Source: Bryoerythrophyllum caledonicum
Taxonomy: Eukaryota > Streptophyta > Bryopsida > Pottiales > Pottiaceae
Length of the DNA: 64,000 nucleotides
Direction of reading: 5' to 3'
Assembly (NCBI GenBank): GCA_963971425.1
Contig: OZ020525.1
Location: 3,517,560 to 3,581,559 of the forward strand
Shown here in pieces: positions 23,389 to 63,095 of the stretch. The notes beneath the pieces are model-generated. The model was not told the origin of the DNA. It saw only the letters and a list, made by a program, of their open reading frames with translations, and did not search any database. How positions within the stretch are numbered: position 1 is the first letter of the stretch; each line of letters opens with the position of its first letter. The position numbers were made by a program, and so were the translations under genes.

Positions 23389-24398
23389 CTACCAACGTGT
23401 ATGTCCTCCATTAGCGTCAATCACTGCTAGTAACCTAGAGGGCATAGAATGACATAGTTGAAGGAGCTTTGTACCATTGACTAACTTCCACTCTCTTTCA
23501 AGAACTACCTTCAACACATCTAAGCTTCTAGGGCATTGTTTGCCATGTTGCACAACATCTTTTAACATCCTCCAAACGTGCTCGATTGGATTGAGATCGG
23601 GAGAGTTTGCAGGCCAGTTGAGCTTTTCGAGAAGGTGGCTTTGTCTCCATTCTTCACATATTTTGCTCCTATGGACGGGTGCCCATCTTCCATAAGCACT
23701 CCTTGTGGAATTTGACCCATGAAATGAACCAATTTGGCATCGTAAACCACTTCTGTAAAGTCCTTAGCAGAACGTTGACCTTTAGGCATAAAGACAAGTT
23801 CTGACTTTTGTCCTCTGGCAAATGCGCCCCAAATCATTAAAGAAGTCCTTCCACTTTTAAAAGTAGGAGTTAGACAACTTGATGAATAATGCTCGTATGC
23901 ACTTCTCCAAACATGAATTTGCCGAGAATTTTTTCCAATTTCAAAAGTAGATTCACCTGTCCAAACAACACGCTCCCACTCTTTTGCACTCCATCCACGG
24001 TACTTCTGAGCAAAAGCTAATCATTGAGACATGTGACGAGGTGTCAAAAAAAGTTTTTTGACTGCAATTCGACTAAAAATGCCATTTTTATGTAAGACCC
24101 TTTGAATAGTATGTCTACACACTTGAGTAGGACATGCATTGGTAATCTCTGAGAGTGAAGAGCAACGATGAATTTTTGAGTAATGCACAATACTACGAAC
24201 ATCTCTATCACTAAGCTTTTTAGCGTGACTTCCACCACAAGGTTTGCGCTTGTAGGTTCCATCTTCTCTAAATGTTTTTACTAACCTTGTAACTGTTCTA
24301 ATAGGAACTCCAATAGTAGCTGCAATTTGGACTCCTGTAAATCCTCCCTCACTCAAACCTATGATGCGAGCACGAATTTCATCTGAAATTGCCATCAT
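23389..24398 (-). pseudogene. Tc1 transposase, broken
   Basis: Cut-and-paste transposase of the Tc1 branch. The N-terminus carries a paired-type helix-turn-helix (IIGLSEGGFTGVQIAATIGV, RTVTRLVKTFREDGT) and a second HTH around SRDVR/CRHTIQRVLHKNGI. The catalytic region follows: VVWTGESTFEIG, then MIWGAFARG, LMEDGHPSIGAK and NSPDLNPIEHVW, with 34 residues between the second Asp and the Glu once the frame change is bridged, i.e. DD34E. Three defects: an in-frame TGA at 24,021-24,023 after PRHMSQ; the first catalytic Asp is Gly (codon 23,955-23,957, WTGES instead of WTDES); and a one-base frame change near 23,648, just before LNWPANSPDL. The frame ends at a TAG at 23,389-23,391, right at the arm edge. 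It cannot make active enzyme, so any recent movement must have been helped by another copy. Confidence 0.85.
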
Positions 24399-26054: not shown

Positions 26055-27243
26055 AAAACCCCTAAATCTTCTTGACAATTTTACACCAAAAAACACTTTG
26101 AAACCGCTGATTGTCCTGGAATGAGTAAGGAAGGAAACAAAAAGTTTTATTTCCAATTTCAATTGTGGGATTCCAATCAAGACTTATAAAGTGACATACT
26201 CACAAAATTTTATTAACTTTGATTGCACAAATTGAAAGATTATTAAATTTAATGTTGAACAGAAGATCATTTTCTTCCCTGCGGTGAGTGGTTCAATAGA
26301 ATTTGACTTCACTTGGTGTCAAATTTTTGTACTAAACAAGGTTAAATTCATTAACATCATGTCAAGCATGATATTAGTTCCTTGCACACGAGTTTTTAGA
26401 GGTAGATAGGGGTGTAGCATATTAAAAAAGAGTGTGCAACAAGTGAAGATTCTAAAAGTGCCAATTCAAGTTTTAGTTTTTGTGAATTTAATATGTTTTA
26501 GAATGAGAATCCAAACAATCAATAGGTTTACACCACATCTTTAGTAGTAAAAATAAAGAGTGAAAAATATGAAGACTACTAAGTTTTATGTGGATATGAA
26601 GAAGTGTTTTTGGTACTTTGCCCAAAAATGAGGATTGCTATCTTGTGAGTAGAAAATGGTGAGCGGCGAGCATTGAGCAATCAAATTTGGGATTTAGGAT
26701 TAATGTTTTAGGGTTTAGGGTGTATATTTTAGGTATTTATGGTGTAGTAAAAGGTAACGCTTTAATATTTTTTGAAGAAAAGTACAAAATAATTATTTTT
26801 CTCCTATTTTTTTTTACTCACTGCTCGTCTCTCATTGTTCACCGCTCACAAGATAGCATGGCTCGCCCAAAAATGTGTGACAATGTGTGAAAATGTATGA
26901 CTTGGGATAAAATGTTATTATTCACTTAAGACAATAAATGTTTTTTGGCAATATGGAAAGTTCTAATATTACTTGCTAATACTGAAAATCTCTCATTCAA
27001 TAGAGTGTCCTAGCAAAAGTTTTTGGAGTTGCCCAATGAGCATACACTCAAGACGTTTCTCTTTAAGTTGGCATAACTTTTTTTCTAGAGGTCCAATGAG
27101 AATAGAAATTACATTCCCATGTGCCTCTTTTCTTCTTGCATCTTTGTACAAAATTCCAAGAATTTTAAATATGATATGTAACCATGGAATGTGCCCAAAA
27201 TATGCAAAAGCCTACCTCGGGATTTTTTTCATTTAGGGGTTAA
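26055..27243 (-). mobile_element. TTAA-type element, subfamily A (A5), interrupted by element D2
   Basis: Reverse-oriented subfamily A copy. It starts near AAAACCCCTAAATCTTCTTG and ends CATTTAGGGGTTAA, with TTAA at 27,240-27,243. Removing the 235-bp D2 insertion and one copy of its 10-bp target duplication leaves about 944 bp, close to the lengths of A1 and A4. Confidence 0.7.
26630..26864. mobile_element. MULE-like miniature element D (copy D2) with exact 10-bp duplication
   Basis: Termini GAGGATTGCTATCTTGTGAG and CTCACAAGATAGCATGGCTC are inverted copies. GCCCAAAAAT stands directly outside both ends (26,620-26,629 and 26,865-26,874), an exact 10-bp target duplication. Because the host sequence is a known repeat (A5), the empty site is predictable as TTGCCCAAAAATGTGTG, which fits the other A copies. 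TTTAGGGTTTAGGGTG-like sequence lies inside. Target size and terminal pattern suggest the Mutator superfamily. Confidence 0.8.
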
Positions 27244-39889: not shown

Positions 39890-42342
39890 AAATAAATAAA
39901 TAAATAAAAATATAATAAATACAATTAGAAATTAATAAAAATATATAAATGTTGTTCTAGATCGAAAAAACCACCCCGTGCCCAATTTTCGTAAGAACGA
40001 CCCAATCAACCAAATCAAACAGCATTAAAACAAAGTTCAACGACCACATCCATGAATTCACCCATTCATCCATCCACGAAGCCGCCTCCAGCCCATAAAT
40101 ACAAAGCCACCTCCAGGCGCTTCAGCACCAAACCCAGGGGACCAGCACCAGGCTGGCCGGGCACAGCCGAAATCTCCCTTTGATGAGGGGTTCTTGGTGG
40201 GTCCCATTGATCACATCCCAGGAAGGAAGGGCCCCTCCTCTCACCAAGACACACAACTCCTCCACGACGCCTCTCCAACTCCGCAACACCCTACGTGTGT
40301 GCCCTCTCTCTCACTCTCTCTATAAGACGCCCCTCTCGCTCTCTTCGTCTTTCATCTCCTCAGTGAATCCCGTGACTTTAGTGACTACAAGTGTGTGCAC
40401 TCCCTACAAGACGCCTCTCTCGCTCTCTCCACTTCCCATCTCCTCAGTGAATCCCGTGACTTTGATGGTGGCTTTTGGCGAATTGGAGGCAATGCCGTTG
40501 TTTGTTTGGGTGGAAGAAGTGTTATTTTCATGAGGTATGTGATGTTGGTGGCGCTCAATCAGATGACTATGCCTGCGAGGCTCCGGCGTTGCCATCAGAT
40601 TGAGCCGCGCCAATATCACATCCTTACTGTTTTGTGCGTCTTTGTTGTGTGTGGGGGTGATGGTAACCTCTTTTGTGTTGAATTAGCTCTGGTTTTTTTG
40701 TCTGCACATAAAGATGAGGTTTTGAAGGACTTTTGGTTGGTATTGTGGAGCTCTCTCTCTCTCTCTCTCCTTCTCATTGGGAGTGGAGTGAGGTGGGAGC
40801 TTCGATGTCCCACCATTTGTGACGATTCAAGTTGCTGCTGTTGACTCCGGTTGGTGTCATCGCAGGTCGTTTTTATTTTGTGTGCTGGTGTGCTCTCGTA
40901 CACATTCTCTGTTCAGAAGGAGGACCTGAGCTTTGGTGTTCGTCACTCAATTCCACATCTGTTGGGTGGTTGAAGTAGCTATTTGTGGCATGTGTTCTGG
41001 TGCATGAATGTGGAAGTGGAGGGTGTTATAGCATGACAACATCTCAGACCTTTTTTTTTCCCTCTCTTTTTAATGTATCTCTGATCCTGATTTTGAGGCA
41101 GTAGTAGTACTTGTGCATTCATTGTGGCGCGTCTTCAGCATTGTGGGAAGCGTCTCCAGCGGGTGTGGACACCACCGGAAAACGGTGACGGACTTCAAAT
41201 GGCCACCCCTGAATAGCAATAGATATATGTGGCAACACATTGGCGGTTTTTTTAAAGAATGTTTAGGAATCCCTTCCCCTTTCGCCTCCCCAAGTGGACC
41301 CCACCTCGCTGTCGCCACTCCTTACCCTGTCGGTGATTCTGCCTGAGAAGCTTCTTTTTTTCTTGGTCGCAGTGGCTCTTGTCAGTGATTTAATTTACAT
41401 GGCTCAGGTTTCTAAGTGCTAGGTCCAAGTTCCGTTGCAGAACGACCTGACAATACAAGCTCTACATGCCTTGTTTTGATGAGGAACAGTTGTGTGACCA
41501 ATTTGTAACCTGGGTACAACCATTGTAATGGGAACATGCGTTAAGTTTGTCAACGAAGCCACATCATTTTCGGACTGCGTAAACCTGTGGGCTACATTCA
41601 CTCTATTCAATTAGCATATGCTAGAATGTATGGTAATGATAGACCAATCGCTGTAGACGCTATATTTTCTTCTTTCTCGTATTCCTTGTTCTTTTCCTAG
41701 TTTTCACTTCGAGATCGTGGTAGAAATGAGATGCGTGGGAATCTGGACGTGGTGACCTTCGGTTGGTTGTACACTTTTATAGAAAGCGGCAAGTAAAGAT
41801 GCCCCACCGGAAATGGAATCTGCACTGTTGGGAGGCCAATCGGTGCTGTTGCATGTTCCGAGGCATTTATGTGTGCTGCCTCTTCGGGATTCTGCGACCA
41901 ACAAAACGACATCTATATAATTTTGTCACCTAGCACCATTGATGCAAATTGCGGCATGGCTGCTCCTCTATTACATGCCATCTCGTAGCATACCTGTTCA
42001 TTCTTGCTGCTTTCCATCGACTACTTGTTGCCCTTGTTCCTCTAGCAGGAATGTTTTTGTTCGGTGCTTGCAATTTCATTGGAAGTTCTGATGTCAACTG
42101 ATTTTATTTATCAGAAATTTGTATGATGAAATCACGCCTGGTGCACATTTAATTATTATGTGTTATACGACTCTTCAATTATGTATTGATATTATCAAGA
42201 AAATAATTTGAAATGTTTTTATATTGACTTTTTGGACAAACAACCTTCCCAAATAAGACAATTATTGGCAGTGAGGCATTTGCCTAAATACCCATTAGGG
42301 GAGAAACTGGCCCATTTTAGTTCTCCATTTGTTATTGGCTTC
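39890..42342 (+). other. GC-richer gene-like tract, no product recognised
   Basis: Base composition rises sharply against the AT-rich repeats on the left. A TATA-like ATAAATACAAAG near 40,097 is followed by CT-rich leader-like DNA, an open frame of 117 codons (40,180-40,533) with no known domain, and AGGTATGT (40,532-40,539), a good splice-donor match just after its stop. Pyrimidine-rich microsatellites (TC)n lie at about 40,300-40,320 and 40,750-40,770. It could be the 5' part of a host or non-coding transcript; the LINE has inserted just downstream. I cannot name a gene and the coding status is doubtful. Confidence 0.3.
40322..40466 (+). repeat. direct duplication of about 80 bp
   Basis: Two copies of an AAGACGCC.CTCTCGCTCTC tract followed by CATCTCCTCAGTGAATCCCG and TGACTTT, at about 40,322-40,382 and 40,404-40,466, make the same peptide words (KTPLSLS..ISSVNPVTL) twice in one frame. 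Confidence 0.8.
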
Positions 42343-42356
42343 GACCTCTTATGATT
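42343..42356. repeat. LINE target-site duplication, 3' side copy
   Basis: GACCTCTTATGATT here and again at 49,475-49,488: an exact 14-bp duplication made on insertion of the LINE. A poly(T) run (the poly(A) tail in reverse) follows directly. Confidence 0.9.
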
Positions 42357-42511
42357 TTTTTTTTTTTTTTTTTTGACACAAGTAAAGAGAACCTTTACTG
42401 TAGAGAAGGAGGGGAGAAAGAACAGCGGCCCGGGTAGACCCCGCCAGGTCCGGCGAGGACGAGTCAAGACCTAGACTGAAGAAAAGGGAAAGGAAAAACA
42501 AAATAAAAAAC

Positions 42512-45500
42512 CTAACTACTAATAAGACTAGGAATAAGATGCCAATTAGGCTTCTCATCAACCCATGTGGCCAGGACGTCATTACAGCACCAAAGATCTT
42601 TGAACCGCTTAGAGAACTTAGTACTCTTCTCAGGAGCTTGGGAGCATCTAAGCAGCGATTTAGACCATGCGGCCCGCCCATAATCAACCAAACCAAGCCA
42701 CACTTTGTTTCTGAGTTTCTGTTGTTCCACTTGGTATCATTGAAGACCGCATCATTTCTTTCACTCCACAACTGCCAAAGAATGATGCCCCTGAGAAGCA
42801 GCCATATCCTACTGATGGAAGTGAACCTTTTCGGTATCCTATGACCGAAAATTCCTTGTTTCCACGTAGGCACAAAATCACGGATATGTTCCCTCCCCCT
42901 CAGCGAATCCTCACTGCAATTGGACTGGGAGTGCTCATCCTTAGTTCTACTATCGGCATGTTCCTCGTTCAAATACGAGGTAGGTCTAGGGGCGATCGGA
43001 GCAGAGTTCAACTGGATGGTGCGCTTCAGGCGAGGGACTCCAATCCTGCGGCGCCACTGCAGTGTACCCATCACGTTCGATCGATCTCTGTATCTACGGG
43101 CAGGGCGAGACACCGGCCGCCGAGGGAGCATAAGTGTCAGAATGCCAACCCCCCACTTCCACGTATCTTGCGCCGACCTGCAGTCCCAGAACCTGTGTAG
43201 CGTAGTCTCTGGGCTCCTTTGTTCGTAGACAGGACAACTTTGGTCGATGGAATTCTGGACTTTCCCTCTCCAAACATTGACGACAGTGGCCTTATGCCAT
43301 ATAGCCCAGATCAAGCCAGCTTCCTTTTGCGCTCGATCAGTATCCCAAATATTGCCCCACTTGAGTTTGTACGTTGCCGGGAGGATTCCGCTCCATTTGC
43401 GAACAACCACTGAAGGTACTTGGCGTTTGTATTGCAGCAGAGATGGTCCGAGTTTGGCCGAAAAGTCCATAAACTGGATTTCGCCATCCCATCTGAATCT
43501 TTCCGGATCCCACGTCAACATGTCGGTTCTCCCGTAGTACAGGTGCATAATATTTTTCTTCACGCCTCTAGAGACTTTCTCCACACGAACCCGTCGCACC
43601 ATGCCGAAGTGAGCCGTGGTCCAGTCCTCAGCATGAAAGCACCACTTGGGCTGACGCTGTGTCATTCTTGACCGGTCTTCCCAGCTGATGTTTCGGAGGC
43701 AATGAGACGCCGTTCTAACCTCGAACACTTCCCAACTCACGGGGATCGCGAGTCTGTGCCAGCCGAGTTCAGTTTGCAGCCTCTCTCCAACCTGAAGCAC
43801 CACGCTGGGGCTCTGAGCCTCTATATCCTCGAAGATCCCGATCCATTCACCAGGAGATGTCTGGAGCCTGTTAGTAGAAAGAATTCTGTGCCACGTGCTT
43901 TCCAACCTATGGACGAGCGTTAGCCAGGCCCCTCTTTTTGTCTCCGACAGGGAGTGTGTAGCCTGTAGCTCTTCAAAATTCATGAAACGATTTTCGTACC
44001 AAATGTCTCTGATCTTTTGGAGTCCCTGTCTGTGAAGTTCCAGGGCTCTGTGACGAGAAAAATCCGGCCCCATAGCTTGAAATGCAGGACAGAACCACAG
44101 GTTGCAACCTAAAAGCTCATCCAAGTTGTTGGGCAGATAATATTTTAACGTTGGAAGCAACGTTTTCCAAGCCGAGGTCGCACGGTTCCAAACTGTGGAA
44201 CCTTTCCTCGCTTGATGTTTGTTGAGTGTGAAGTAGTCGAGACTTGCATCCCATCTTCCTTTGGCGAATGGTTGAGACGACGCCAGGCGATACCTCAGGA
44301 TGGCATGCAAGTTAGAGTCACCAGGTTCCAGTGCTTTAATAACCCACTTGGTCATGAGAGCTGTCGCGGCATCTTCAATATTGATCAGGTTAAGTCCTCC
44401 GTGTGCTTTGCGTTGGTAGCATTGAATCCAGCTCACGCGGGTACGAGATCGCCTTGCCGTGCCGGAGGCAAGGTAGTTCATTATTAATCCTTTGACCCTC
44501 GTAATCCCTTTTTTTGTACCTCCCCAAATAGAGAGAAAGAAAAGAGGGGCTGATAGAAGCACACTGTTGGCGATCACACATCTCCCCATAGGATTGAGCT
44601 TCGTGGAGCTCCAGAAGACCAATTTCTTTGCGATTCTCTCGAACAGAAAGTTATCCACAGAACGAGTGGCCAACGTCATGCCGAACGGGGCCCCGAGTAG
44701 TTTGCTGACATCGCCCAGCTCGGCCCACGTAATGCCTAACTGATCGGACCATACTGGTCTTCCAGGGCCTCCCCAATCTTGCCAGTAACCGCACGATTTA
44801 GACCAGTTAATGACAAGACCTGTGGCAAGGCAGAAGTCATTCAGTAAGTCAATCAGGAACCTCGCAGATTCTTTTCTCCCGAGTAGGGTGAAAGAGGTAT
44901 CGTCGGCATACTGCGCAAGGATTTGTTGCCTGCTTGAACCACGTAGCTGAATTCCTTCAACTCGGCCGTTGAGAGCCTCTTGTTTCACCATGATATTCAA
45001 AACCTCTGCTACAATGATGAATAAATACGGAGCTAAAGGGCAGCCTTGCCTCACGCCCCTTTCAATCCTAAAGGCTAGGCCTGGGCTACCATTTACTTTG
45101 GCGGCAGAAGTAGCTCCCTAAAGGAGGATCTTGATCATTCCAATGAACATATTAGGAAAACCGAAGGCTTCTAGGATCTTGAATAGGCACTTCCAGTCAA
45201 TCATATCATAGGCCTTAGTAAAATCAAGCTTTAGAAAAAGTAGGGGCTGACTTGTCTGTTCAGCCCATGACATTGTTTCTTGGATGAGCAGTATATTATC
45301 TAGGATGTATCTAAGGGGAAGGAACGCGGATTGCTCCGGGCTGATTATGTCCATCAGAATAGGTTGTAGGCGTCTTTGGAGGGCTTTAGCGAAGATCTTA
45401 TACGCAATGTTCAAGAGGGATATCGGCCTCCAGTTGGATAAAGAGCGACGTTCCCCTCCCTTATATAACAGTGTAAGTAGACCGTGGGACATTCCTGCTG

Positions 45501-47045
45501 GCAGCTTGCCCTCGTTGATGCTCGTACGAATCATATTTGCGAATTCAGTACCTATGAGATCCCAGAACGTAGCATAAAATTCTACTCCCACTCCATCTGG
45601 ACCCGGCGACTTGCCCAGCCGCATCTCACCCAGTGCTGTCTTCAGTTCTTCTTCAGAAACTTCGGCATTTAATATACCCTTCATGCGGTCGTCAATTCTG
45701 GGATTGAGATATGTTAAGATTTTATGTATGGCTTCTTCTGTTGCAGGGGTGGCTGGTCTTGCTTTATAGAGTCGTTGGAGAACTCCTTGCATATCTTCTC
45801 CAGCCCTGCCTGTGACGATTCCAACTGACCCTCGTCATCTGCTAGCTCCACTAAATTCGACGCTGTGGACCGGGCTCTGTGTGACGAGAAAAATTCTCGT
45901 GTGCATTTATCTCCCACGTCTAACCACTTGAGACGGCTTTTTAATCGCGCCCCTTCTGCCTTTCTTTTCTCTATGACCTGAATACGAGCCAAGAGCTCAT
46001 CGAGTTGCTGTTGGGCTGGCCGGTTGTCTGGCTCTTCCTGCAGCTTTCGGTGTGCCTCTTCAAGATCTTTTCTCGCCTGGACTTTCTCCCTCCTACCTTC
46101 TCGTGCTTTGTTGATACAAAAACGTTTATAGAATCTCAGCACTCTCCGCAGCTTCCCAAAAAAGGAGAGGTTCGGATGGTCTAGCCAGGTTTGCCGGATG
46201 CCATACTGAGCCTCCGGGTGTTTGAGTAATGAGACATTCATCACGAAAGTAGATTTGCGTTGTTGGGAGGGCTCCAATTGTACTTCTCTCCAAACCGGGA
46301 GATGATCTGACAATGCCGTGTCGCCAAGGATATGGTATGACTCGCTTGTGGCTCGTGGTCGCGACCCCAGGAAGGTGTATGTACGGTCGAGTCTCGCCAA
46401 AACTCGTTGTCCGTCACGTCTTCTGCTGTCCCAGGAGAACCGAATTTTGCTCTTCGTTGGGAAGGTATCTTCTACAGCCAAGGCGCTCTTCAGCTCTTGG
46501 AATAATTGTTTCTCTTCGACCGATCTGTAAGACTCGCATGAGTTGGATTTGTCTTCCCTTGATTCTACGAAATTCCAGTCCCCTGTTAAGATCCACCGAC
46601 ATTCACGAGGAAGCAATAGGAGTAACTCCCTCCAGAGGTCACACCGTTCAGCAGAGGAGTGGGGGCAATAGACGTTGAGTAGAGCGACATCTCCTCCTGG
46701 TAGTCCTGCGAGCTTTATCCATTGTGCACTTCCTGCCTCGGTATGTCCTTGTTCGCAGATCAAGTGTGAGAGTTTTGGTGACACCCATATCCTTGTACCA
46801 CCGCTCCCCGCTCCTTCCTCTCTTCCTTCATTGTTGTAGGCTACCTGTGCTTCTTGACCAATGAAACAAGCTCCTGGCCAAAATAATTTCTCTAGTGCGT
46901 GGAACTTACTACCTCTTAGCTTAGTTTCTTGTAAACAAATGATGTCCACTTTCCCTAGTATTCTTTGATAGTATTCACTGATAACATCCCTTTTATTCCC
47001 CTCATTCATACCCCGCACATTGTGTGTTATGATGGTCAATTTCAT
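42512..47045 (-). pseudogene. LINE ORF2: endonuclease-reverse transcriptase, three breaks
   Basis: ORF2 polyprotein that nicks target DNA and copies element RNA. Order: AP-type endonuclease at the N-terminus (THNVRGMN, LQETKL, TGDWNFV, LARLDRTY, LSDHLPV; all main motifs visible), then reverse transcriptase (GKSPGPDG, NWRPISLLN, LKLDFTKAYDMIDW, RQGCPLAPYLFII, active-site YADD), then a zf-RVT region (CPVYEQRSPETTLHRFWDC). Breaks: a frame change near 45,775 between endonuclease and reverse transcriptase; an in-frame TAG at 45,118-45,120 between the LKLDF and QGCPL motifs; and a frame change near 42,725, after which the expected tail (KLRNKVWLGLVDYGRAAW) is in another frame and ends at 42,512. 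It starts with an ATG overlapping the ORF1 stop, so re-initiation is the likely mode of translation. Catalytic residues survive but no full product can be made. Confidence 0.85.
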
Positions 47046-49084
47046 GAGCGGGAGGGGGGGAGAGAGAACTGGGAGTGCACACCTCTTGTGTTGTTCACGG
47101 AAGGGCTGAACCTGACTGACTTGTTCTGATGGCTTAATTGTTGTCCAAGTTGTTGTTCCCTGCCTTGTAGCATGAAAGGCCGTGACTTGTTCGGTGAGCT
47201 TGGTTCTCCCTCATCTTCCCAGCCTTGATCCCGTAGCCACTGTCTGAGAACCGAGCCGAGGATGGCGGGTGCCAGAGCTCGACTCTTTTTATTGGGACCT
47301 TCCGAGAATTCTTCTGCGCCTTGTATATCTGCGGGTCCTAGACTAAGGTCGTCCGATTCCATTCCAGTTAGTCGAGAGTCTTCTCCTGCGATCCGCTCTG
47401 GTATCTGTTCTATGTCCTTCAGGTAAGTCAGAGTTTGATCTGGAGTGGTTGCCGATCCCAGTTCATTTCCTTGGCTCCTTGCATGGAGTCCCGTTCCTAC
47501 GTACGGTGACAAAAAACCTGTTAACGTATTCGCTGCCACCTCCGCTCGTGCGTGGCTCGGTGCCTTACGTGGCAGCTCGGAGTCTGCCGATGACGCAGTT
47601 TCATGCTCCGCCGATCTCGACGTGCTCTCGCTCACTGCTGTTCTTGGTTTGCTTGGCTGAAGTTGCGATCCCTGTATCGTCATCCTGGTGTTTGAACCTG
47701 GCTGGGGCCTTCTCGCTCTCCCGTTTCTCTTCTTCCAAAGTCCTACTGCCTGCATATGCGTATCCAGGCTTCTTCTCAATTCCCTAGCTTCAAGGCTTTC
47801 GAGATCTCTTGATACCGTCTCTTCACGGAACTGTCTTGTGTTGACGACGTCTAGGACTGTAATGTCCACTTGCTTTGATGTCTCGTCTATAGGTTGCATC
47901 TGTATGATTCTTGATTTCGGGGGCGATGGCAGCTGTTCCTGGATAGGAGGTTGATCCGGTCGCTCCTCTTCTTCCTGTGTCTTGTTTTCCCGCATCTGCT
48001 CGGTATCGTTCGGTATAATGCTTTGACTTGCGTTCGGGGACGGTCTCTGTTCTACCCTCGCTGATGTGCGTTCTTCACTGGCCGCGGCTCCTCTTGTTCC
48101 TATCTGTCTCATTGGGTGACGACTATGTGTATTCTGTAATGCACGACAGTCTTTGATCAAGTGCGTCGTAGATAGACAGTGTCTACATCTGATCGGCAAA
48201 TTGTTGTAATCTACTGCCAATGTTACTAACTCTCCTGAAATAGGGTTCATGACATTAATGTTCATGATGAACGGCTTAGCTGTGTCAATATTGACACAAA
48301 ATTTCTGATCTATAGAGTAGCGATTACCTCTGTGTTTGCCTACTACCTTCCCGATGCATTTTGCAATGTCGTTGATGCTGCTGCGTATTTCGTCTGGTAC
48401 TGCCTTGAGCGTGATCCATATCGGCATCTGGGCCTTGACAGGGACACTAGAGTTAAATCCAGCCATCCACGGTTGTAGCATGCATGTCCCCCATCGCGAC
48501 GTGTGTGGGGTGAGCATGAAGAGTTGTTGAGTGGCGCTTACATCCTTGGTTACAATCTGGAAGAACCCGTTGCCCATATTCCGTCCGAACTCACATTCCG
48601 CTTGGGCATCTCTTGAAAGTGTTGAAAGCCATGCGGGGACAGGCTCCCACCTTGCTTTGCCACCTACAAAATAGGCGATTACTGTGTTTTGTTGGAAGTG
48701 TTCCATCTCCTTCTTCACCTTATTTTCGTCAAGCGTAAATTCAGCAGCTTGTTTGCAAAGCAAGAAACCAGACCCACTGCGGAATAGAGTGTCTGGAAGG
48801 ATCTCACCGGGAGTTGCCTTGGAGGGATTAAGTATGGCGTGACTCCCGAGGTGAGCCATTGCCGCTACTACTTCAGGCTCTGACAATTCATGTTTCAGGA
48901 GTGCTTCCGCTTTCCTCCTCTCCTCCAAGGCTGAGAGTTTGATAGGGGCGTGCGCGATGTGCGCCTTGAGCACCTCTGCAAAGCTGATCCCGGGTGCTGC
49001 CTGCGACTCTCCTACGGCCCTCCCCGACATGAGTGGGGAGGCCAACGGGGGAGGTGGTATCAGTGTCGAAGGAGGGACTGCCAT
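47042..49084 (-). CDS. LINE ORF1 protein, DUF4283-like with CCHC knuckle
   Basis: 680-residue, apparently intact ORF1 product of the LINE, expected to bind element RNA and form the retrotransposition particle. A proline-rich N-terminus (PPPPLASP) is followed by a DUF4283-like region at about residues 135-255 (VIAYFVGGKARW, GNGFFQIV, PIWITLKAVPDEI), a plant-typical ORF1 domain. A zinc knuckle CRHCLSTTHLIKDC (CX2CX4HX4C) is at about 300-313. The rest is a charged, probably disordered tail ending in a basic patch (KKSR). The ATG (49,082-49,084, context GCCATGGCAG) fits a plant start site well. Its stop codon overlaps the ORF2 start as ATGA. Confidence 0.85.
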   Translation of the reverse strand: MAVPPSTLIPPPPLASPLMSGRAVGESQAAPGISFAEVLKAHIAHAPIKLSALEERRKAEALLKHELSEPEVVAAMAHLGSHAILNPSKATPGEILPDTLFRSGSGFLLCKQAAEFTLDENKVKKEMEHFQQNTVIAYFVGGKARWEPVPAWLSTLSRDAQAECEFGRNMGNGFFQIVTKDVSATQQLFMLTPHTSRWGTCMLQPWMAGFNSSVPVKAQMPIWITLKAVPDEIRSSINDIAKCIGKVVGKHRGNRYSIDQKFCVNIDTAKPFIMNINVMNPISGELVTLAVDYNNLPIRCRHCLSTTHLIKDCRALQNTHSRHPMRQIGTRGAAASEERTSARVEQRPSPNASQSIIPNDTEQMRENKTQEEEERPDQPPIQEQLPSPPKSRIIQMQPIDETSKQVDITVLDVVNTRQFREETVSRDLESLEARELRRSLDTHMQAVGLWKKRNGRARRPQPGSNTRMTIQGSQLQPSKPRTAVSESTSRSAEHETASSADSELPRKAPSHARAEVAANTLTGFLSPYVGTGLHARSQGNELGSATTPDQTLTYLKDIEQIPERIAGEDSRLTGMESDDLSLGPADIQGAEEFSEGPNKKSRALAPAILGSVLRQWLRDQGWEDEGEPSSPNKSRPFMLQGREQQLGQQLSHQNKSVRFSPSVNNTRGVHSQFSLPPSRS

Positions 49085-49474
49085 GGCAGAGTCTGTGGAG
49101 TCTGTGCCAATTGGAGCCCTCGTCTCTACACCGTACCTTGTACACTTGTTGTTCCCTCCTGTTGCTTCAGTTCTTGTTGACGGACTAATGCAGCAGAACT
49201 GATGTTGGATCTTCCTTCTAAACCCTAATCTATATACCTAATACCTAAACCCTTCTACTTGTGACCTTAACCCTAACCCTAGTCAGTCCCCCGATCGTTC
49301 CACTCTTCGTGCGATAGATCTGTGCACTTCTAGGTGCGTTCTGGATCTCTGCACACGTTGAATTGAACGATCTAGACCTAAACCTAAACGTATGTCTGTT
49401 ACTGCATTAACACAATGACGCATTCAACTGCGAGCCGCAACCTCACTCAGACTCTCATTGCGCCCCCTCTCCCG

Positions 49475-53231: not shown

Positions 53232-54242
53232 AGATCATCAACTGTTGAGGTGGTTGATGGAATCTGACAAGCTGACAGGGAAACTAGTGCGGTGGGCCTT
53301 GATGTTGATGGAATTCGACTTCAAGGTAGTTTACAGGGCAAAGTTGGTGAACATGGATGCTGACGGCCTTTGCCGTAATCCACTTTCAATCGAAGAGGAC
53401 GTCACAAGCGCAAGGTGGCACGGTGATGGTGAGGTTGTTTTGTTGCTTCGTTGACATTGTTCGGCATTTAGGAGTATTGGCGATTCATGAAGACACCACG
53501 GGGGAAGCTACTATGGCCACGGTAGATAAGGATGGAGGTGAGGAGTCTGGGGGCACTAGAGACATCTTCAAAGACACGAATGTCATGCAGTTTCTAAAGA
53601 ATGGAGTGGCAGTGCCAACATGGTCCGCTTATGAGAAATATCGGGTTTTACAACAAGCCTAACAGTTCGTGTGGGAGAGGACTCACCTTGTTAGGACGTG
53701 GCCGGACAATACCAAGAAGGTCGTGCAGACTTCAATAGAGAGGGTGAAGCTGATCAAGCATGCATATGAGGATCTCGGACACTTTGGAGTGCGGAGGACC
53801 TATAATTTGCTACAGATCCACTATTGGTTGCGAGGGATGCACTCACAAGTCCAAGCGTTGGTCGTTTGGTGTATGATGTGTGAACATGTGCGAGCGTCTT
53901 TTAACACTCTGATGCCACAATTGCAACCATTGCCAATTATGGGCTTAGCATACAGGTGGAGCTTGGTTTTTGGATTTTGCAGGACCATTGCCAATGACAC
54001 CTTGACACAACAAGTATGTGTTGGTGATCATTGAGCATTTCTCGAAATGCATAGAATTGGTGGCATTTCTTGATAAGTTCAATGAGGGGGCCGCTGATAC
54101 TATTTTCTTGATCGTGTTCAGACTCTAGAGTCGCTTTGGAGCTCCAACGGAGGTACTCACAGACCAAGGGAGAGAATTCTTGGGTGAGTATTAGACGCAA
54201 TGTGAGCAAGCGATGATTGATCATCGCACTACTTCGAGGGGG
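53228..54242 (+). mobile_element. Ty3/gypsy pol fossil (RNase H to integrase)
   Basis: Fragment of an LTR retrotransposon of the Ty3/gypsy class, plus strand. Parts seen in order: the end of reverse transcriptase/RNase H (around 53,230-53,400), a spacer, the zinc-binding region of integrase and the first part of the integrase core (to about 54,240). It is broken by several interruptions and cut at both ends; no LTR is attached. It abuts truncated A10 on the left and a D-type repeat on the right. The age looks old from its decay. Confidence 0.8.
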
Positions 54243-54305
54243 AATGCTATTATGTGAGCGGTGAGCGGTGAGCGGTGAACGGTGAGCGGTGAGAGGTGAG
54301 TAGGA
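54243..54305. repeat. D-type terminal end with expanded GTGAGCG units
   Basis: GAATGCTATTATGTGAGCGG followed by about six GTGAGCG or close units. This is one end of a MULE-like D element with extra terminal subunits; no opposite end was found nearby. Confidence 0.5.
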
Positions 54306-57300
54306 TATATTAATCCATGATGAGTAGGGTTTCTAAGACGTCAGGCTGTGATTCCATCATTTGCTTTAAGAAAAAGCATTGATAGACCTATTACGGTGGG
54401 ATTTGAAAACTTTGCAATTGTGAAATTCGATGTAACTATATCTTAAAATCCTGAGTCGTTGATGACTCTAAAGACTCCCTAACCTCAGTTGCTGATCCAT
54501 CTATGAACTGCAAAGCATTTTCATCATATTTATTTTCGTTGGATTTTGGTTTAGAGCAACCAAGCTTTGCAAAGGCCATTGCCATCTTCCCAACACACAT
54601 TGGTAGATCATATGACTTCATCGGGCTAAAAAAAAGACCTTGATTCTTCATCAATGCATTGGCTAATGTCAATCCTGAACGGCTGCAAATTGAAATTATA
54701 CAACATAAGTATTTAGAACCAAAAAAATTAGGTAGCAAAAATGACAGTAAATAAATGTGTACACTCACTTATTGAATCTAGCCTTCAGATGGAACTTCCA
54801 GGGCACTACAACCATGGCATCAGGATCCTCTGATGCTACATCTACGGCTTTAGCTTCAGGTGGTTCCGTGACCGGAAAGGCCATCTTCATGGGCTTCAAA
54901 AGGGCATTAAACAGTTGTCTGTCCTTCTCTTAAGCCACAATTTGTCGGTGAAGACCACAACAAGCGGTAATCAATGTACCTGGAATTAAGATTCAAAACT
55001 TTAGATCAATAAACAATCTCATTTTGTAATTAAAAATTCAAATACACAACAATATAATAGATTACTCACCCGTAGATGCAGTGCAATCAAGAACCAAATC
55101 TCCTTCCACGGTCGTCCCCTCAACAAGGAGCTGGAAGAAACGTGGATCTGTTTGGCGAGGCCCCCGCCATGGTATATCACCATTCATCGCCAGGTCGCAT
55201 TCCAAGGTATAATTAATCAACATGTCGTCTCATCCGATTTCCACACTTGCAGACTTCATTGTAGTTGAGCGTTTGAAAAAGAAGTTTGATTTTCCTCTCA
55301 CCCAGGTTTTTTACAACCTGGCTGATTCCAAACTTCTGCGTCTGAAAATTCAAAATCAACATGAACATGAGAAATCAATAGGATATTTTTCAACAAAAAA
55401 ATAAATTAAAGCAAAGAAGCATAGAATAGAACTCACGATGGTGGAAACATCCATTGCTAAAGTCAAGTGAAGACGATTCATGCCCAACCATTCTTTCTTC
55501 TTCACCATCTGATATGTCTCACAGAGTCCAATAATATTCCCTTTGGAAACAACAGAGAAAGAATGGAACACTATCATGCAACCATCGTCATGGAGATGTA
55601 ATTCTGCAAATGCAAATGCAGATTAGAGATCCTCATATTCTTTGTCTTCATTCCAAACTGGCACTATAGTTGGAGGAGAAGACACCCCTAGTACAAGCAA
55701 ATTCTCCTGGCAGTCAAATAAAATCAAGCCCAATGCTGGCTTTGGTGATGCTTCGCCATTGAACTTGCGAGACTTCTCTCCAGAAAACTGTAGAGAAGTA
55801 TCAGGATTCAACATCAATATTTAACTAGTCGAAATAAGTCTATGGACTAATATTTTGTTATACATTTTGATAATAATACTAAAAAGACTTACCTTCTTCA
55901 AGAATTGAGGAACCTCAGAATATAATATTGGTGTGTCAACGTCCATGTTCTCCAAAAGATCCGTGATGGAGACATTGAGGATTAGACCTCCAAAGTCATT
56001 TATACGGTGCTCATCAAGGATAGTGAGCTGTGTCCCTTGAGTAATCACATCTTCAGACAATTCAGGGAGTGCAGTGGTTCTCATGATTCCACTATGAGAT
56101 CCACCTAGCATCTAAGAGCCTTGATCCACTGTAGAAGATGCTGGAATTGGGTTGTGAGGATCAGTCTTCTTCTTCCCTTTGCCCTTGGCCCCCTTGCTCG
56201 CCTTTGCAATTTCCATTTCCTTCTCGGCTAGCTTGGCCAAGCGTTCCTCTTCCTTCTTTTCCTTTGTGGTCATAATATCTTGCACACGTGCTTCCTTCTT
56301 CTTATTAGTGGCTTCCCTCTTGGCAATGGCCCTCTTCTTTTGTTTGTCACTGAGGCCAACGAACTCGTCAACCTCCAAATTAATGGCATTGAGGCCATCA
56401 AATGATATTTTGAGCTCCACCTCTGATGGATGGGTGAAAGTAAGGTTGCAATCCAAATACCACCCTCCCCCACTGAGATGGGCACTTGTGAAGGTGCGGA
56501 ATTGGACAAGAGTGATCATACATTCCTTTGAACTTCGGTCCAACCAAGAAGATAAGAAAGGAGGAAAATCTGACTTATTGATTGCACCCTTTGCTTCCAA
56601 TTCATACTTGAAATACCTAGAATAAAAAAGAGACAATAACAGGGGAAGTTCAAATTATGGAATTGAAGTATTAACTTAAATAGGTTCGTATACAACAATG
56701 CATTTGAATAGCATTGTATACAACAGAGCATTTGAACAACCTTAATTAATTCAAGCCCACTTTCCATAAAGAAATTTAAATACTTGAGCATGAAAATGAA
56801 AAGCATCAAGATTATATTGAAATGGAAATTACAACAAATACTGTGGAAAGTCATACCGGAAAATTACTCTTTGCACAACTTGCCCTCAACCCTCAAAATC
56901 TTGAAGATGTCAATTTTTTGGAAATGATTAGCTCCTTTAAAGGTAGGCCGGAAACCATGATCCCAAAACTTCCTCCTCCATCCTTCCACATATGCATTTA
57001 AATTCTCCGGTTGCAGCGGTAGGTTCATATTGATCGGGATTTTATCCTTCTTCACGACCATGTCAAAGAACTCAATTGCAGCATCTTCAATCTACAAGAT
57101 TGCAACGGAAGATAAAAAAACCAATTCACAATAAATCTAGGTATGTAATACTGATGAATACTGAAGGTAATTGTTACGATTGTAAGTAAACATATCCCGT
57201 CATACCAAACGCACTTGGTCAGGAATGGACCAAGATGGGCCTTTGAAATAGGCTTTGTAGGGAAATGCCAAGCGTTACGTGATGGCATGGATGAGTTCTA

Positions 57301-59359
57301 CCACTGAAAAAACTTAATCTTGTGCTTGGAGGTAGTGGAACATGTTGCTACCATCTGGAGTTTCTCCAAGGTCATCTTTGGAACTTTGTTAGAGTTCTAG
57401 TGACTGTCCACCTGAAAAGAGAAGAACACATGCATTTTTAAAGAGCAAATGATCATGGAGTGCTATATAGAGCATTAAAATAACTATAGAGGACCAAAAA
57501 ATAAGGCAGAGAATCCACCTCTTCGAGAAACCCTGAACCAAGAGCAAGGTTGGCAACAGTGAGTAATTTGTGCATCTTCTAATACAATTTTGTGGACTTC
57601 TCTTTAGCTCCCACTCTCATGCATCAGCAACTCCAGCATCAAATTTCTCATCAATTGGTGTGTCTTCATGGTATTTTTGAAGCGAGGCATATGATGCAGC
57701 AACAATTTCTTGCTGTAAACGACCAACATTAATATAACTGAAATTTTTTGTAAGACAAATTCAATGATAGCATAACATAGTACTGGAAAGAGAATGTAGA
57801 CAATGTCCATTTCTTACCCTGAAAATGAACGTAGTGAAGACATCTATTGGCAACAAATACCAAGTCTTCCGAGGCAATTGAGTAGAGCATCATTTTTTCT
57901 GTGACGTTCTTAGCATCTCATTCAACCTCTCCAAGGGCATGAGGCCATATTTCTACACTCGATACAGTGTGTGAACCAAGTTGGTCTTTACGTGGGAGTC
58001 TTTAGTGGATCTGCATTTGATCACCCGTATTGAGGTCACAAATCTATATATATTGCATAAAATCCAGTAGAAGTATGAAATTGAATGGGAATTTATTGTC
58101 ATGGCAAATCATATATGAGTGATTAAGTACTTACTTGTTTATGCCATGCATGATCTGCATGACCAATTCAATCTGACCCCTTGTCTCCAACACAATATAG
58201 TCAACCGCAATGAGCCATGAGGGGTCTGCTAAATGAAGCCTTGAAATGTGGTTCATCCACGCTAGAAGTCGATGATTGCCATCACAGACAAAAAACTTTG
58301 CGTTCTTCAAAAATTTAAGTTCACCAATTGAAGTTACATATTTTTTGAACAAATCATTCTCCTTCTTCCATTGCGTCCCAATGTTCTCAATCTCATCCGC
58401 CGTGAACTCCATGCACTCCCCGGCCTCATTAGTCGTGGAGACATAAAAAACTGTTGCCCCTTCACGATATCCATGAACAAATTCTTGTTCAAGTTTCACA
58501 ATATCGCATGAAAGAGTTGGTCTTACCATTGGCATAGAAACAAGTCTAGACAAGGGGATTTGAAGGCAGAATAGATGGTCAGGCTTCATTCGTAATGAGG
58601 TGATAGATGTCACGGAGTCCACTTTCTTCAGACGACGCAACTCATCTGCAAACATATCGTTCTCTTCATCAATCAGTACTTCAATTTCACCAAAATCCGG
58701 CCCTCCTCGAATTTCAGGTTGGACAGTCTCATCAGTTCTCAGAGTTTCATCACCTCGGTCACCTAGAGCTAGCATCTTTGAAGATGTATTTTCCTGCAAG
58801 TATCATTCCATAATGTTTTTCATTCTAATAATACTCATATTGTACAACAAATTATTCATACATGCATGGATATATGGTGCTAGTCAATTTGCTAGTTGCA
58901 TGGATATGTGGTGCTAGTTCTGATTATACACATGAATATGGTGCTAGTTATAGTACATACAAGGAATATGGTGCTAGTTGTAATGTCTAGACTCCACAAA
59001 AAAACATCCTAATTGTGACATCAAATAAGCTCCCTAATTGGCTAAGTGGGAAGGAATTCAAGTCTTACAGTCGTAGCTCCTGCAACCTCCTCTGATGATG
59101 AATCTCCAGAGACTTCAACGATTGGAGAAACATGAGCTTCATCCAATATAGCGTTTGAAGGTTGTGGCTCAGATCTTGACGAGATACCGACGTCGTCTTT
59201 AGAGTGCTACTCCATCAACACACGAAAAAAATCAGAAAGTCTGAGACATTGTTAATAATATGCATCTCAAAACATCAAAGACTGTGGGTTAAAAACTATC
59301 AAGATGAATCCAAGCGAACATTTGGTTTGATGTGTTTGATCCATATCGCCGTTCGGAAA

Positions 59360-61430
59360 CAAGCCCAATGTACATCAGTTGTCGTTACCTTCCCTGCAAA
59401 TAAGTTTTGAGCTCCAATCTGAGAGTAACATTGGCTATCAAGCGGACCCTTTTCGGATCCGAGAGGCATCCGATGGGAAGCCCAAGCTACAACAATATTT
59501 GGTAACAACCGAGACATTGCGAGTCCACCATTAGAGTCCAATCAACATAAACAGAGCGACGCCACAAAACAAGCGGCCGTTCCATCCAAATCAAAGATAC
59601 TGACATTCAACAGCATGCGTAGGAACTACCTAGGACCCTGAAATTTAATGGCCTCCAAAAAATGGGGTAGCAAGAGCTGTAACCGGGAGCCCTCTCGGAT
59701 CCGAGAGGATTGTCAAGGTTACCTTGAGCTACCTCGCTTTCCGTAAAGAATTCTTATTAACACTAGTTTCTAGTGCCTGAAGAGACACAACAAAACCCAC
59801 AACCTCATCTCAAACAATCGTAATGAGGCGATTTCTAGTAAGTGTAACACATAATCGTGAAAACGTAACTTCCGGATCACCTGAATACAACCGTGGTTGA
59901 CTTCTGCGCCGGGCTCAGCAATACACAACGTGTTCGATATATCAGTTCTACATAGAGCTCCTCCAAAAGCCTTACCATCCCGAGGGAAGGGAGCCATGAT
60001 AATCAAATCTATAGTTGTCCACCAACGATGACGAAGGCAAGGAGCGTCGATGAAAACGCAAGCTCGCCCAGTAACAAGCCCAATGTACACAAGAAATCGG
60101 TAGGACGCAACCTTTTACAAATAATTTGTCTGAAATCTAAGAGTATCGTAGGCTCTCAGGCAAACCATTTTCGGCTCCGAGAGGCATCGGATGGGAAGCC
60201 CAAGGTGCATCAACATTTGATATCATAGTAGAGTACGCGCGCCAATTCCGAACTCACTGGTGGCGATTCGGCCGACCTTGAAACGCAAATCTGTCACTGA
60301 CCGGTGGTGGAAATGGCAGGTTTTGCTCTCTTCTGACTGGAATTTAGAGACCACCAAGTTCTTTCATAACTATCTATAGTGAACAAACAATAGTATAATA
60401 AATCAAAAGAGAGGAGTATCTTCTCCAAAACATTGGCTGCTTTGCTATGCTCCCCTTTCAGAGAAGTGAATGATGATTCTCATTTCACTTTTGTGTAGTA
60501 AGTAGTGGTGGTGGACGTTGCAGGTTTTGCTCTACTATGGAACATATACAAACCTGGAGCTTCTGGAGCACTACGGGTTTCCGCTCCCCTACAATCCCAA
60601 CAATAAAGTGCACATTGACCTGCCTAGCGGCGAAGAACTGAATAATCGAGGCGCTAGTTCGAGAGGTGGTTTTTAAGAGCCAGCAGTTTCACCCAAGGAT
60701 CTCTACATCAATCACGAGGGGAAGCCTTCCTTCTCCTTGCTCTTAAACCTACGTCTCAGAGCTGCTCCTACGTCTCTCCTCAAGACTCCCCGTCATTTGG
60801 CCCTTGCTGGTGAACAAATCTCCCTAGAATTTGACAGAGTGTTGTTCTAGTGTCTGACAAATCTCTTCTCCATTGTAATTTTCGAAACGCAAATCCCAAG
60901 GTAACAAACAATCCACTAGTCTATTTGGCTGCCACTGTCTCACATCTATCTCAGTTCCTACTGTTCCTGCTGTTCGTGCTGAAAGTGTTCTTGATTTGGG
61001 TACCCGGCCCTTCACCTGTAAACCTCTCTCGGATCTGAGATGGATTCCTAGAGCTGCTATAAGATATGGATGAAACTGCTCCACGGGCTCAGCAATATAT
61101 ACATAGTGACACCGCGACTTTCACCAAGCAATAAACCTCGGTGGACTCGTGGTAATAGACGTCACCGAGCAAAGTGACCTCGCGACTTTCACCAAGGTAA
61201 TAGACCTCGCTAGCACCGGAGTCGGGAGTTCTACACCTCAGCAGGCGGTACCAGCAACCCATCAGAGCAATAAACAATGTCATAATACTGGACATTAGAA
61301 ATTGTCTTACAATTTTTTGTGAAGGTGTTCTTGATTTGGGTACCTAGCCCTTCACCCGTAAACCTCTCTCGGATCCAAGATGGATTCCTGGAATTGCTAA
61401 AACTACACATGAAACTGCTCCATGAGCGAT
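59360..61430. repeat. duplicated segments and CTCGGATCCGAG palindromes in intron 1
   Basis: Intron 1 of the methyltransferase-like gene (about 2.5 kb) holds two diverged repeat pairs: 59,362-59,505 with 60,076-60,225 (AAGCCCAATGTACA, GGCATC.GATGGGAAGCCCAA), and 60,983-61,090 with 61,322-61,425 (TGTTCTTGATTTGGGTACC, AACCTCTCTCGGATC). The palindrome CTCGGATCCGAG or a one- to two-base variant recurs near 59,455, 59,697, 60,174, 61,030 and 61,370. These look like pieces of one inserted repeat, possibly a palindrome-rich element, that enlarged the intron. Confidence 0.55.
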
Positions 61431-61689
61431 CGGGAAGCAGAAAATCTAAACTGCTCCTTCAGCGACTAACTAACACAGACCCTCTTGGTTATATTCATCA
61501 AGCTCTCGATTGCTCGATACCATCTATAAACCAGCACCTCGAAGACCACTCTGCAAATCTCAATGCTGGAAAATGAAACCACAGCTTCATCCTATCGTCC
61601 CCTGATGCTTGCGGCTTCTTCCTAAAGCCCCCCGACACTAAACAACTCGCGCGGCAAGAGCAAAAATCATCAACGCAGTTGATACTTAC
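61431..61689. other. start of intron 1
   Basis: The intron donor GTAAGTATC follows exon 1 at 61,689. Nothing else is recognised. Confidence 0.4.
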
Positions 61690-62216
61690 CTTTGATCGAT
61701 GCTCGTCTTCTCTATCTTCTAAATTGACGCATCGTCTCCTTGGTCGTCCAGCTCCCACGACAACCGACTTCATGTGCTTCTCATTGCGCCTTCTTTCTCC
61801 TCGCCAACCTGCAAGGAACTCATGTCGAACACTGCCGCACTCGCTCACTGCCGCTCCCGCTCACTGCCGCTCTCATGATCTGCCGCTTGTGCTTACTTCC
61901 ACATATGCAAACTCTCGCAAAAGCCTACTAAAGCCTTGCCGCACTTGCCTCGCGAAGAGAGAACTCTGGATACCCTCTAGTCGAGTATGAGATCCTTACT
62001 CTCGGGTTTAGGGTTCTATCCTTGCTTCGTTAGTTTTAATGATCTGCCACTATATTAAGGATCCAAAATATTTTAAAGCCCCCACTATTTACGTAATTTT
62101 GTTATCAATTTTCAAAGAAATTTTTTGATCACTTCATATTTATTATTTAGTCATTCTCGATAGTTATTCATAAAAAACCAAAATTCCAAAACGACAATTG
62201 ATTTGCGGACGCTTAC

Positions 62217-62405
62217 GCCTGATATATCTGGTCTTCTGATATGCCTATCTATTGCGCTCTCCAGGAATGACTCTCCATCATCATTTGCACTATCTGCAGC
62301 AACATCTTCATCTTCTATAATTGATCCGCCAGCAAAATGCAACACTTTCCGTACTTTTTCAGGTGATGTTCGTCCTATTTTAGATGTAACTTTCTTTAGT
62401 TTCAT
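62217..62405 (-). CDS. possible upstream coding exon
   Basis: A 63-codon open piece from an ATG (62,405) to a good donor, GGC|GTAAGC, at 62,216. It has a basic start (MKLKKVTSKIGRTSPEKVRK) and an acidic middle (IIEDEDVAADS). It is phase 0, like the start of the exon at 61.7 kb, so it could be the true first exon of the methyltransferase-like gene or an alternative one. No acceptor links it with certainty. It could also belong to an unrelated gene. No domain is recognised. Confidence 0.35.
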
Positions 62406-62439
62406 TCTAAATCTTCTAATCTGAGCCTTCGTTCCCACA

Positions 62440-63095
62440 AAGAATCATCGAGAATTACAACGACTAACAACAAGCCTAGATCTGTACAATGTCAAGTATA
62501 CCACAATAGATACATCAAAAGAGAGGAAAGAAAGGTTTAGACCATGAGCTCTGAGCGTTAATTATACCAACCACCTCGCTCAAGTGCCTCCTTCGAGTAG
62601 GATCCTACTTGGCCCAGATCCTTCGTGGCCCAGTTTTAGGTAGTCTAAACTTATAGCTTTATACATATGTACACTATAGACATCCAGCGTACGTTAGCAC
62701 CCAGATAGGATATATCACCACGACCAATGGTCCGTGGACTCACAGAGATTTTAGTGTGGATACAAGTAACGACTATCTTCCCTCACATTCTCTCCTTCTG
62801 TCTCTACTCACTCACTTGGATGTTTATGGTGTCACTAAGGTCCCCTTTAAGGGGGAGTTAGACCCGAGATACTGAAACTAAGAGAGACGTAAAGTAAGTG
62901 AGAAGGGGGCCTGCCCGCCCACTATCCAAAACTCTCTAAGTCTCCCTCCACATCCGATGCGGCTGGAGGTAGGATGCTTCCGAGAACGACACTAGTCTTC
63001 ACAACCAACGCCAACCTGACACTGGAAGGTCACTCAAGACTTCCTATGACCCTTCACGTCCGTCACTCTTCCCTTATCCTCCCCTAAGCACTTAC
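62440..63095. other. no supported gene
   Basis: Mixed-composition DNA between the possible upstream exon and the duplicated donor-like segments. No feature is recognised. Confidence 0.4.

Follow-up and report, generated by a model that had tools for sequence, protein, structure and literature searches.

A decayed, spliced gene of probable ParB–amino-methyltransferase type beside a transposon end in the moss Bryoerythrophyllum caledonicum

Accessory genes that combine a ParB domain with a methylase for N4-methylcytosine (4mC) or N6-methyladenine (6mA) are described in transposons of brown, green and red algae (PMC12477816, in the excerpt used here). In Ectocarpus, for instance, a gene of 1104 amino acids that encodes a ParB-like domain together with a methyltransferase whose predicted product is 4mC or 6mA sits in a 21.5-kb Sola1 element, on the strand opposite to that of the transposase (PMC12477816, same excerpt). 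Here we describe a gene of similar make-up in a stretch of 64,000 nucleotides from the moss Bryoerythrophyllum caledonicum (GenBank assembly GCA_963971425.1, contig OZ020525.1, positions 3,517,560 to 3,581,559 of the forward strand). This whole stretch is called the window below, and positions are counted from its first letter. The gene is spliced, lies on the minus strand at 54436–61773 and is decayed. We interpret it, with a probability of roughly 60%, as the dead accessory gene of a Mutator-like element (MULE)-type DNA transposon in a land plant; rather than to a host gene family, it probably belongs to a class of accessory proteins already known from transposons, here represented in a land plant. 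An earlier note, made from the letters of this DNA alone, had proposed a plant gene family of possibly undescribed architecture. The novelty is not supported, since ParB–methylase genes for 4mC or 6mA have been published for algal transposons (PMC12477816, excerpt), and neither is the host family, the present copy being a pseudogene that adjoins a transposon terminal repeat. The note had nevertheless seen a real and unusual gene, and had named its domains about right.

The algal accessory genes are the closest known kind, as they match the moss gene in make-up and size: both have the two domains, of which the ParB-like one is likely in the moss gene, both are of comparable length (1104 amino acids, versus 1,165 in the moss gene without its first exon), and both are associated with DNA transposons. 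They differ in that the gene described here is found in a land plant, next to a MULE-like terminal repeat instead of in a Sola1 or EnSpm element, that it is a pseudogene and that no transposase is seen with it; the likeness is one of description, not of sequence (PMC12477816, excerpt). None of the literature matches listed reports a ParB–methylase gene of this kind from a land plant.

The same combination of domains is found in bacteria. Thirteen bacterial loci were fetched as candidates, and in 11 of them a single frame encodes both a ParB domain and an N6/N4 methylase; this frame is 449–484 amino acids long in 10 of the 11 cases. A ParB domain followed by a permuted methylase is therefore an ordinary prokaryotic fusion, as the earlier note had stated. 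The bacterial fusions (of the PF02195 + PF01555 type) resemble the moss gene in having the ParB domain at the N-terminus and, at the C-terminus, a methylase in which motif IV precedes motif I. On the contrary, their frames are open and without introns, and about 100 amino acids separate the ParB core from the methylase, against about 500 here; the ParB core of the moss gene is moreover split into two halves by an insertion of about 45–50 residues (judged by eye), unlike that of the fusions. The ParB domain of one such protein, Bce_0392 of B. cereus, is cited as a non-specific nickase (PMC5512222, excerpt).

The N4CMT enzyme of bdelloid rotifers shows that amino-methylases of bacterial origin can be functional in eukaryotes (PMC8885841, excerpt). 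Like the moss gene, N4CMT is a permuted bacterial N6_N4 methylase in a eukaryote, has introns and clusters with phage enzymes; unlike the moss gene, it is active, has an SPPY motif and carries a chromodomain, while the excerpt mentions no ParB domain (PMC8885841).

The model of the moss gene, rebuilt from the sequence, comprises 12 exons (Table 1). Ends of the GT and AG type can be assigned to all 11 introns, the donor GT of exon 4 being one base past the listed exon border. The donors are mainly GTAAGN or GTGAGT, with a weak GTGGAT at exon 5 and GTATGA at exons 6 and 7. The introns between exons 3 and 12 are 86 to 240 bases long, on a single strand and without any intergenic gap. Exon 1 is supported by its ATG and a good donor only, and the read-through of 1,165 amino acids was typed without it. 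Regarding the reading phase, which had been reported to agree throughout the 12 exons, it is consistent at 8 of the 11 junctions when the GT donors are used, and broken at the junctions between exons 4 and 5, 5 and 6, and 7 and 8. The motifs quoted in the earlier note are all found on the minus strand, where it had put them: exon 3 contains VCDGNHRLLAW and exon 8 the linker rich in Lys and Glu, LDCTASTG closes exon 10, and both ITAC and QLFNALLKPM belong to exon 11.

The gene is a decayed copy because it contains in-frame stops and internal frame changes. In the best frame of each exon we count 10 stops (one in each of exons 4, 7, 8, 9 and 11, two in exon 5 and three in exon 6), a total that drops to 9 if exon 5 changes frame ahead of its first stop. 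The three frame changes are within exons 4, 5 and 10. Exon 3, which contains the ParB-like core, is free of stops across its full 659 bases. That the gene at 54436–61773 is a pseudogene is as good as certain, and the present copy should not yield a protein, given these stops and frame changes. We also considered a non-standard code in which stops stand for Gln, but inspection by eye speaks against it: the frame changes persist and one of the stops is TGA. It is also contradicted by the position of the stop in exon 11, which is I, F or M in phage methylases.

Table 1. Positions of the gene, of the neighbouring transposon features and of repeats in the window
Feature	Position	Strand	Basis or remark
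Exon 12: C-terminal tail and stop	54436–54682	-	TGCAG acceptor; phase consistent with exon 11
Exon 11: last part of motif I and the second half of the AdoMet (S-adenosylmethionine)-binding part, with ITAC and QLFNALLKPM; 1 stop	54769–54979	-	Read-through aligned to phage methylases
Exon 10: target-recognition part, motif I LDCTASTG at its end; 1 frame change	55070–55341	-	Open reading frame 55065–55229 is top of 557 with a phage methylase profile
Exon 9: catalytic half, SSPPT...WNED and LHDDGCMIVFHS; 1 stop	55437–55787	-	Alignment to phage methylases
Exon 8: linker rich in Lys and Glu, followed by the first part of the methyltransferase domain; 1 stop	55893–56616	-	ILDEHR..VPQF aligned to bacterial fusions
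Exon 7: 1 stop	56857–57091	-	Rebuilt exon model
Exon 6: 3 stops	57206–57411	-	Rebuilt exon model
Exon 5: 1 or 2 stops, 1 frame change	57519–57712	-	Rebuilt exon model
Exon 4: 1 stop, 1 frame change	57819–58043	-	Rebuilt exon model
Exon 3: likely ParB/sulfiredoxin (Srx)-like domain, VCDGNHRLLAW core; fully open	58135–58793	-	PHROG_1033; top of 557 with the broad ParB profile
Exon 2	59069–59206	-	Rebuilt exon model
Putative exon 1	61690–61773	-	Only an ATG and a GTAAGT donor
Left terminal inverted repeat of a putative transposon: GGGGAATGCTATTATG, then about 6.7 copies of GTGAGCG	54239–54300	+	Common to both miniature elements of the window
Gypsy-type integrase remnant, in the flank outside the gene, ending at the terminal repeat	53663–54238	+	PF17921, 8.4e-12
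Weak candidate for the right terminal repeat	61837–61892	-	Local score 31 with the inverted left repeat
16-bp palindrome, five copies, consensus CTCTCGGATCCGAGAG	59450, 59692, 60168, 61026, 61366 (59450–61381)	+	Pattern search, at most 3 mismatches
Repeat family, at most about 0.9 kb	13.7–15.4, 21.4–22.4, 26.0–27.0, 32.5–34.1, 49.5–50.4, 52.5–53.2 kb		

The C-terminal part of the gene very probably contains a prokaryote-type beta-class N6/N4 amino-methyltransferase domain, judging from alignments of its read-through, and the proposal of the earlier note is borne out in this respect. The read-through matches a methyltransferase family of PHROG with E 1.9e-5. A tblastn search against phages, with a loose limit of 10, returned 272 records, and the best 20 of the 272 (top E 0.002) are mostly annotated methylases. 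When the read-through is compared with six phage methylases using hhalign, the probability is 92.5, the E-value 4.8e-7 (for a single comparison) and the score 52.5 over 174 columns, against a maximum of 31.3 among 100 shuffles; the six enzymes were chosen from the matches of the same query, so this comparison is not fully independent. The alignment spans both halves of the domain, catalytic and AdoMet, and their order is that of the beta class: the catalytic-half alignment (LHDDGCMIVFHS) is upstream of LDCTASTG, that is, motif IV comes before motif I, as had been claimed.

The profile scans of the window covered all its 557 open reading frames (ORFs) of at least 45 amino acids, each cut at 400. 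With a profile of phage methylases, the ORF of exon 10 comes out top (31.5, runner-up 19.4). In exon 8, the stretch ILDEHR..VPQF aligns to the bacterial fusions with a score of 29.5 (maximum of 60 shuffles, 21.0), which we treat as a hint because it is only second among the ORFs. The methylase part retrieves four methylase sequences at E 0.027–0.14 among seven matches in a phmmer search of the PDB, and CcrM in NCBIfam (E 0.087), alongside a chance match to NusB at 0.027. The candidate catalytic motifs, SSPPT and VPQF, are off the consensus and do not tell which of the two bases the enzyme would have methylated.

Regarding the other half, the region of exon 3 is likely a ParB-like domain, an assignment based on its motif. 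The top PHROG match of this stretch is PHROG_1033, 'ParB-like' (E 0.01), and the DGQHR domain of NCBIfam matches it with E 0.12. Seed ParB domains were gathered from bacterial genomes. A profile of 54 mostly canonical ParBs placed CDGNHRLLAW of exon 3 on GERRWRA. We also used a broad profile of 31 rows, consisting of 14 of the 54 mostly canonical rows, 7 divergent ParBs picked by hand and the bacterial fusions except that of locus L213 (10 of 11). With this broad profile, exon 3 scores 24.9, over 16 columns only, against a maximum of 17.0 in 60 shuffles; it is top of the window ORFs (25.2, runner-up 18.1), and also top among the 68 ORFs of at least 90 amino acids. It is important to note that the broad profile was picked after the canonical one had given a negative result, which somewhat flatters its significance; the rankings across the window provide a better control. 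When only the 10 fused ParB ends are used for comparison, the score of exon 3 is 18.4 (maximum of 60 shuffles, 15.1). Searches of the ParB part with tblastn gave nothing meaningful in phages (4 records, best E 7) or plasmids (2 records, best E 5), and phmmer against the PDB gave one chance match. The single-sequence AlphaFold model of exon 3, with a pLDDT (predicted local distance difference test) of 30, is unusable for the fold. It may be that the insertion in the core accounts for the failure of longer ParB alignments.

A transposon end lies directly behind the 3' end of the gene, whose stop is 197 bp inward from position 54239, where a terminal inverted repeat (TIR) begins. A longer version of the TIR pattern, searched with at most 3 mismatches, has 4 matches in the window, where 0 are expected from 100 shuffles. 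The same TIR motif is present at both ends of two complete miniature inverted-repeat transposable elements (MITEs), at 22583–22800 and 26630–26864, which are flanked by 10-bp target duplications, 8/10 in the former and a perfect 10/10 in the latter. Because of these duplications, we infer that the TIR family is Mutator-like. On the other side of the TIR, the match of the gypsy-type integrase remnant to PF00665 (6.2e-7, 30.1 bits for a cut-off of 32.6, profile positions 24–101 of 102) stops at 54239, a point which also nearly coincides with the end of the profile (101 of 102).

Beyond the 5' end of the gene, the candidate right terminal repeat ranks third in the window as a match to the inverted left repeat, behind the two MITE ends. 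The candidate target duplication of the gene-bearing unit is 7/10, with a chance probability of 0.005 without slack, and of 0.08 and 0.31 with slack. The unit may be 54239–61892 with a single gene, or may extend past the window. That the whole gene is contained in one element is supported, but less strongly than the methylase and the decay. At 62151–62444 (minus strand), an open frame resembles an exon, is followed by a GTAAGC donor and matches no Pfam family; it could be part of another gene or an upstream part of the gene-bearing unit.

Plant Pack-MULEs and other Mutator-like elements are similar to this locus with respect to the TIRs and the 10-bp target duplications, the latter seen here in the two MITEs with the same TIR. 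The cargo of Pack-MULEs consists of pieces of host genes, whereas the cargo here is of a prokaryotic type. Pack-MULEs are named as an analogue of non-autonomous giant elements (PMC12477816, excerpt).

Several results weigh against a transposon accessory gene with these two domains. At the right-end candidate, the plain reversed sequence scores 28, versus 31 for the inverted repeat, and the right TIR stays a weak candidate. Pfam detects a gypsy or transposase domain in none of the eight ORFs tested past 62 kb, and gypsy does not visibly resume there, the coverage of the gypsy integrase end by Pfam being poor; nor is there any MuDR-type transposase among the ORFs of the window submitted to Pfam. 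The TIR could also be that of a truncated MITE merely adjoining the gene. As for the domains, nothing anywhere in the gene exceeds the cut-off of a Pfam family. Pfam, to which the earlier note had looked for both halves, gives no ParB match in exon 3, where the best hit is the unrelated SL4P (E 0.0046, under its cut-off); single exons give no methylase match, and the read-through reaches N6_N4_Mtase (PF01555) with E 0.045 and 14.1 bits, under the cut-off of 26.7. The profile of canonical ParBs scores 14.0, inside the range of its shuffles (up to 18.1), so that the ParB-like domain proposed by the note, which is supported by the broad profile and PHROG_1033, came close to having no profile match at all. 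With a longer query, the ParB PHROG is at E 0.026, level with a family of unknown function. When phage enzymes and bacterial fusions are pooled in one profile, the two methylase exons come only 5th and 6th of the 557 ORFs. The catalytic consensus [DNS]PP[YFW] is absent, the candidates SSPPT (exon 9) and VPQF (exon 8) being non-canonical in this decayed copy.

These uncertainties about the right TIR and the transposase leave room for an old plant host gene family, which would have come from bacteria or phages and gained introns, the present gene being a dead paralogue next to a coincidental, truncated MITE. The structure in 12 spliced exons, with short introns from exon 3 onward and plant-like splice sites, would fit such a history, as would the occurrence of the same architecture in bacterial homologues. 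We nevertheless find it unlikely: the gene is heavily decayed, its stop is only 197 bp from a TIR that also bounds an integrase match, and its published relatives are carried by transposons in three algal groups (PMC12477816, excerpt).

Another explanation is that two unrelated decayed neighbours have been joined in the model, exons 2–7, with a ParB-like motif that would be due to chance or belong to another fold, and exons 8–12, with the methylase. The three broken phases, at the junctions of exons 4 and 5, 5 and 6, and 7 and 8, can be read in this way, and so can the limitation of the ParB support to 16 columns. However, exons 3–12 follow one another on one strand, separated by short introns with no intergenic gap, each half is top in an independent scan of the same 557 ORFs, and the order of the domains is that of known fusions, which makes two genes very improbable. 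A large DNA virus that became endogenised and left this remnant, or another viral insertion carrying a ParB–methylase gene, would explain the similarity of the methyltransferase half to phage enzymes, and ParB domains and methylases do occur repeatedly among phage proteins and those of conjugative elements (PMC5512222, excerpt), but such an origin is hardly credible in view of the 12 spliced exons, of the lack of viral families among the neighbouring ORFs submitted to Pfam and of IMG/VR scans with both halves, which reach close relatives only and found none. A separate IMG/VR scan with a bacterial ParB gave three loci, which were not used further.

We return to the accessory gene of a MULE-like transposon. 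Its intact ancestor would have encoded a protein of about 1,100–1,200 amino acids, in which a long middle region separated a ParB/sulfiredoxin-like domain from a beta-class amino-methyltransferase, which is the architecture of the bacterial ParB–methylase fusions and of the algal accessory genes. The methyltransferase would have added 4mC or 6mA to DNA, and the ParB-like domain may have bound or nicked the DNA of the element itself. The intact protein could in this way have methylated its own element, and this mark on the transposon could have served in protection, or in the timing or regulation of transposition. We suggest self-methylation as the function of the ancestor tentatively, and with more doubt than confidence.

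Five copies of a 16-bp palindrome lie upstream of the exon with the ParB-like core, in the interval that separates exon 1 from exon 2, and none is found elsewhere in the 64 kb; in shuffles the mean count is 0.06 and the maximum 1. The pattern was derived from the repeats themselves, and the five copies are not five independent events, because several of them sit within longer duplicated segments. It is possible, as an idea, that these palindromes are binding sites of the ParB domain. A more general scenario, in which Mutator-like transposons of land plants have their own methyltransferase, guided by ParB to a parS-like array of palindromes, and write 4mC or 6mA on themselves, is in our opinion rather improbable. 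If it were true, these transposons would have a self-made epigenetic mark outside the 5-methylcytosine (5mC) system of plants. The existence of a dedicated writer of 4mC or 6mA in the DNA of land plants is disputed, and has been doubted in the case of 6mA (PMC12695648, excerpt). A prokaryote-type writer carried by a transposon would be a concrete candidate, and could explain patchy distributions. A little-studied class of algal transposon accessory genes would also extend to land plants, and intact copies, in this moss or in related species, would make the self-methylation of transposons directly testable.

Last, we note other features of the window. The repeat family listed in Table 1 has many diverged copies, one of them with a MITE inside. 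An open frame at 23562–24020 (minus strand) resembles, by eye, a transposase of the Tc1/mariner type, and has no Pfam match. A large remnant of a long interspersed nuclear element (LINE), at 42349–49237 on the minus strand, comprises ORF1-like, endonuclease and reverse transcriptase parts, and its 3' end is marked by 20 consecutive T in the plus strand; it is of the plant type, with RVT_1 above its cut-off and zf-RVT and DUF4283 below theirs. A MIR171 precursor, which like this LINE indicates that the window is most likely land-plant DNA, is present at 40531–40629 on the plus strand (Rfam RF00643, 59 bits for a gathering score of 48, E 1.1e-8); it folds into a very stable hairpin (-52.6 kcal/mol, z -6.1) and contains, with one mismatch, the mature MIR171 sequence. 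MIR171 is a marker of land plants.

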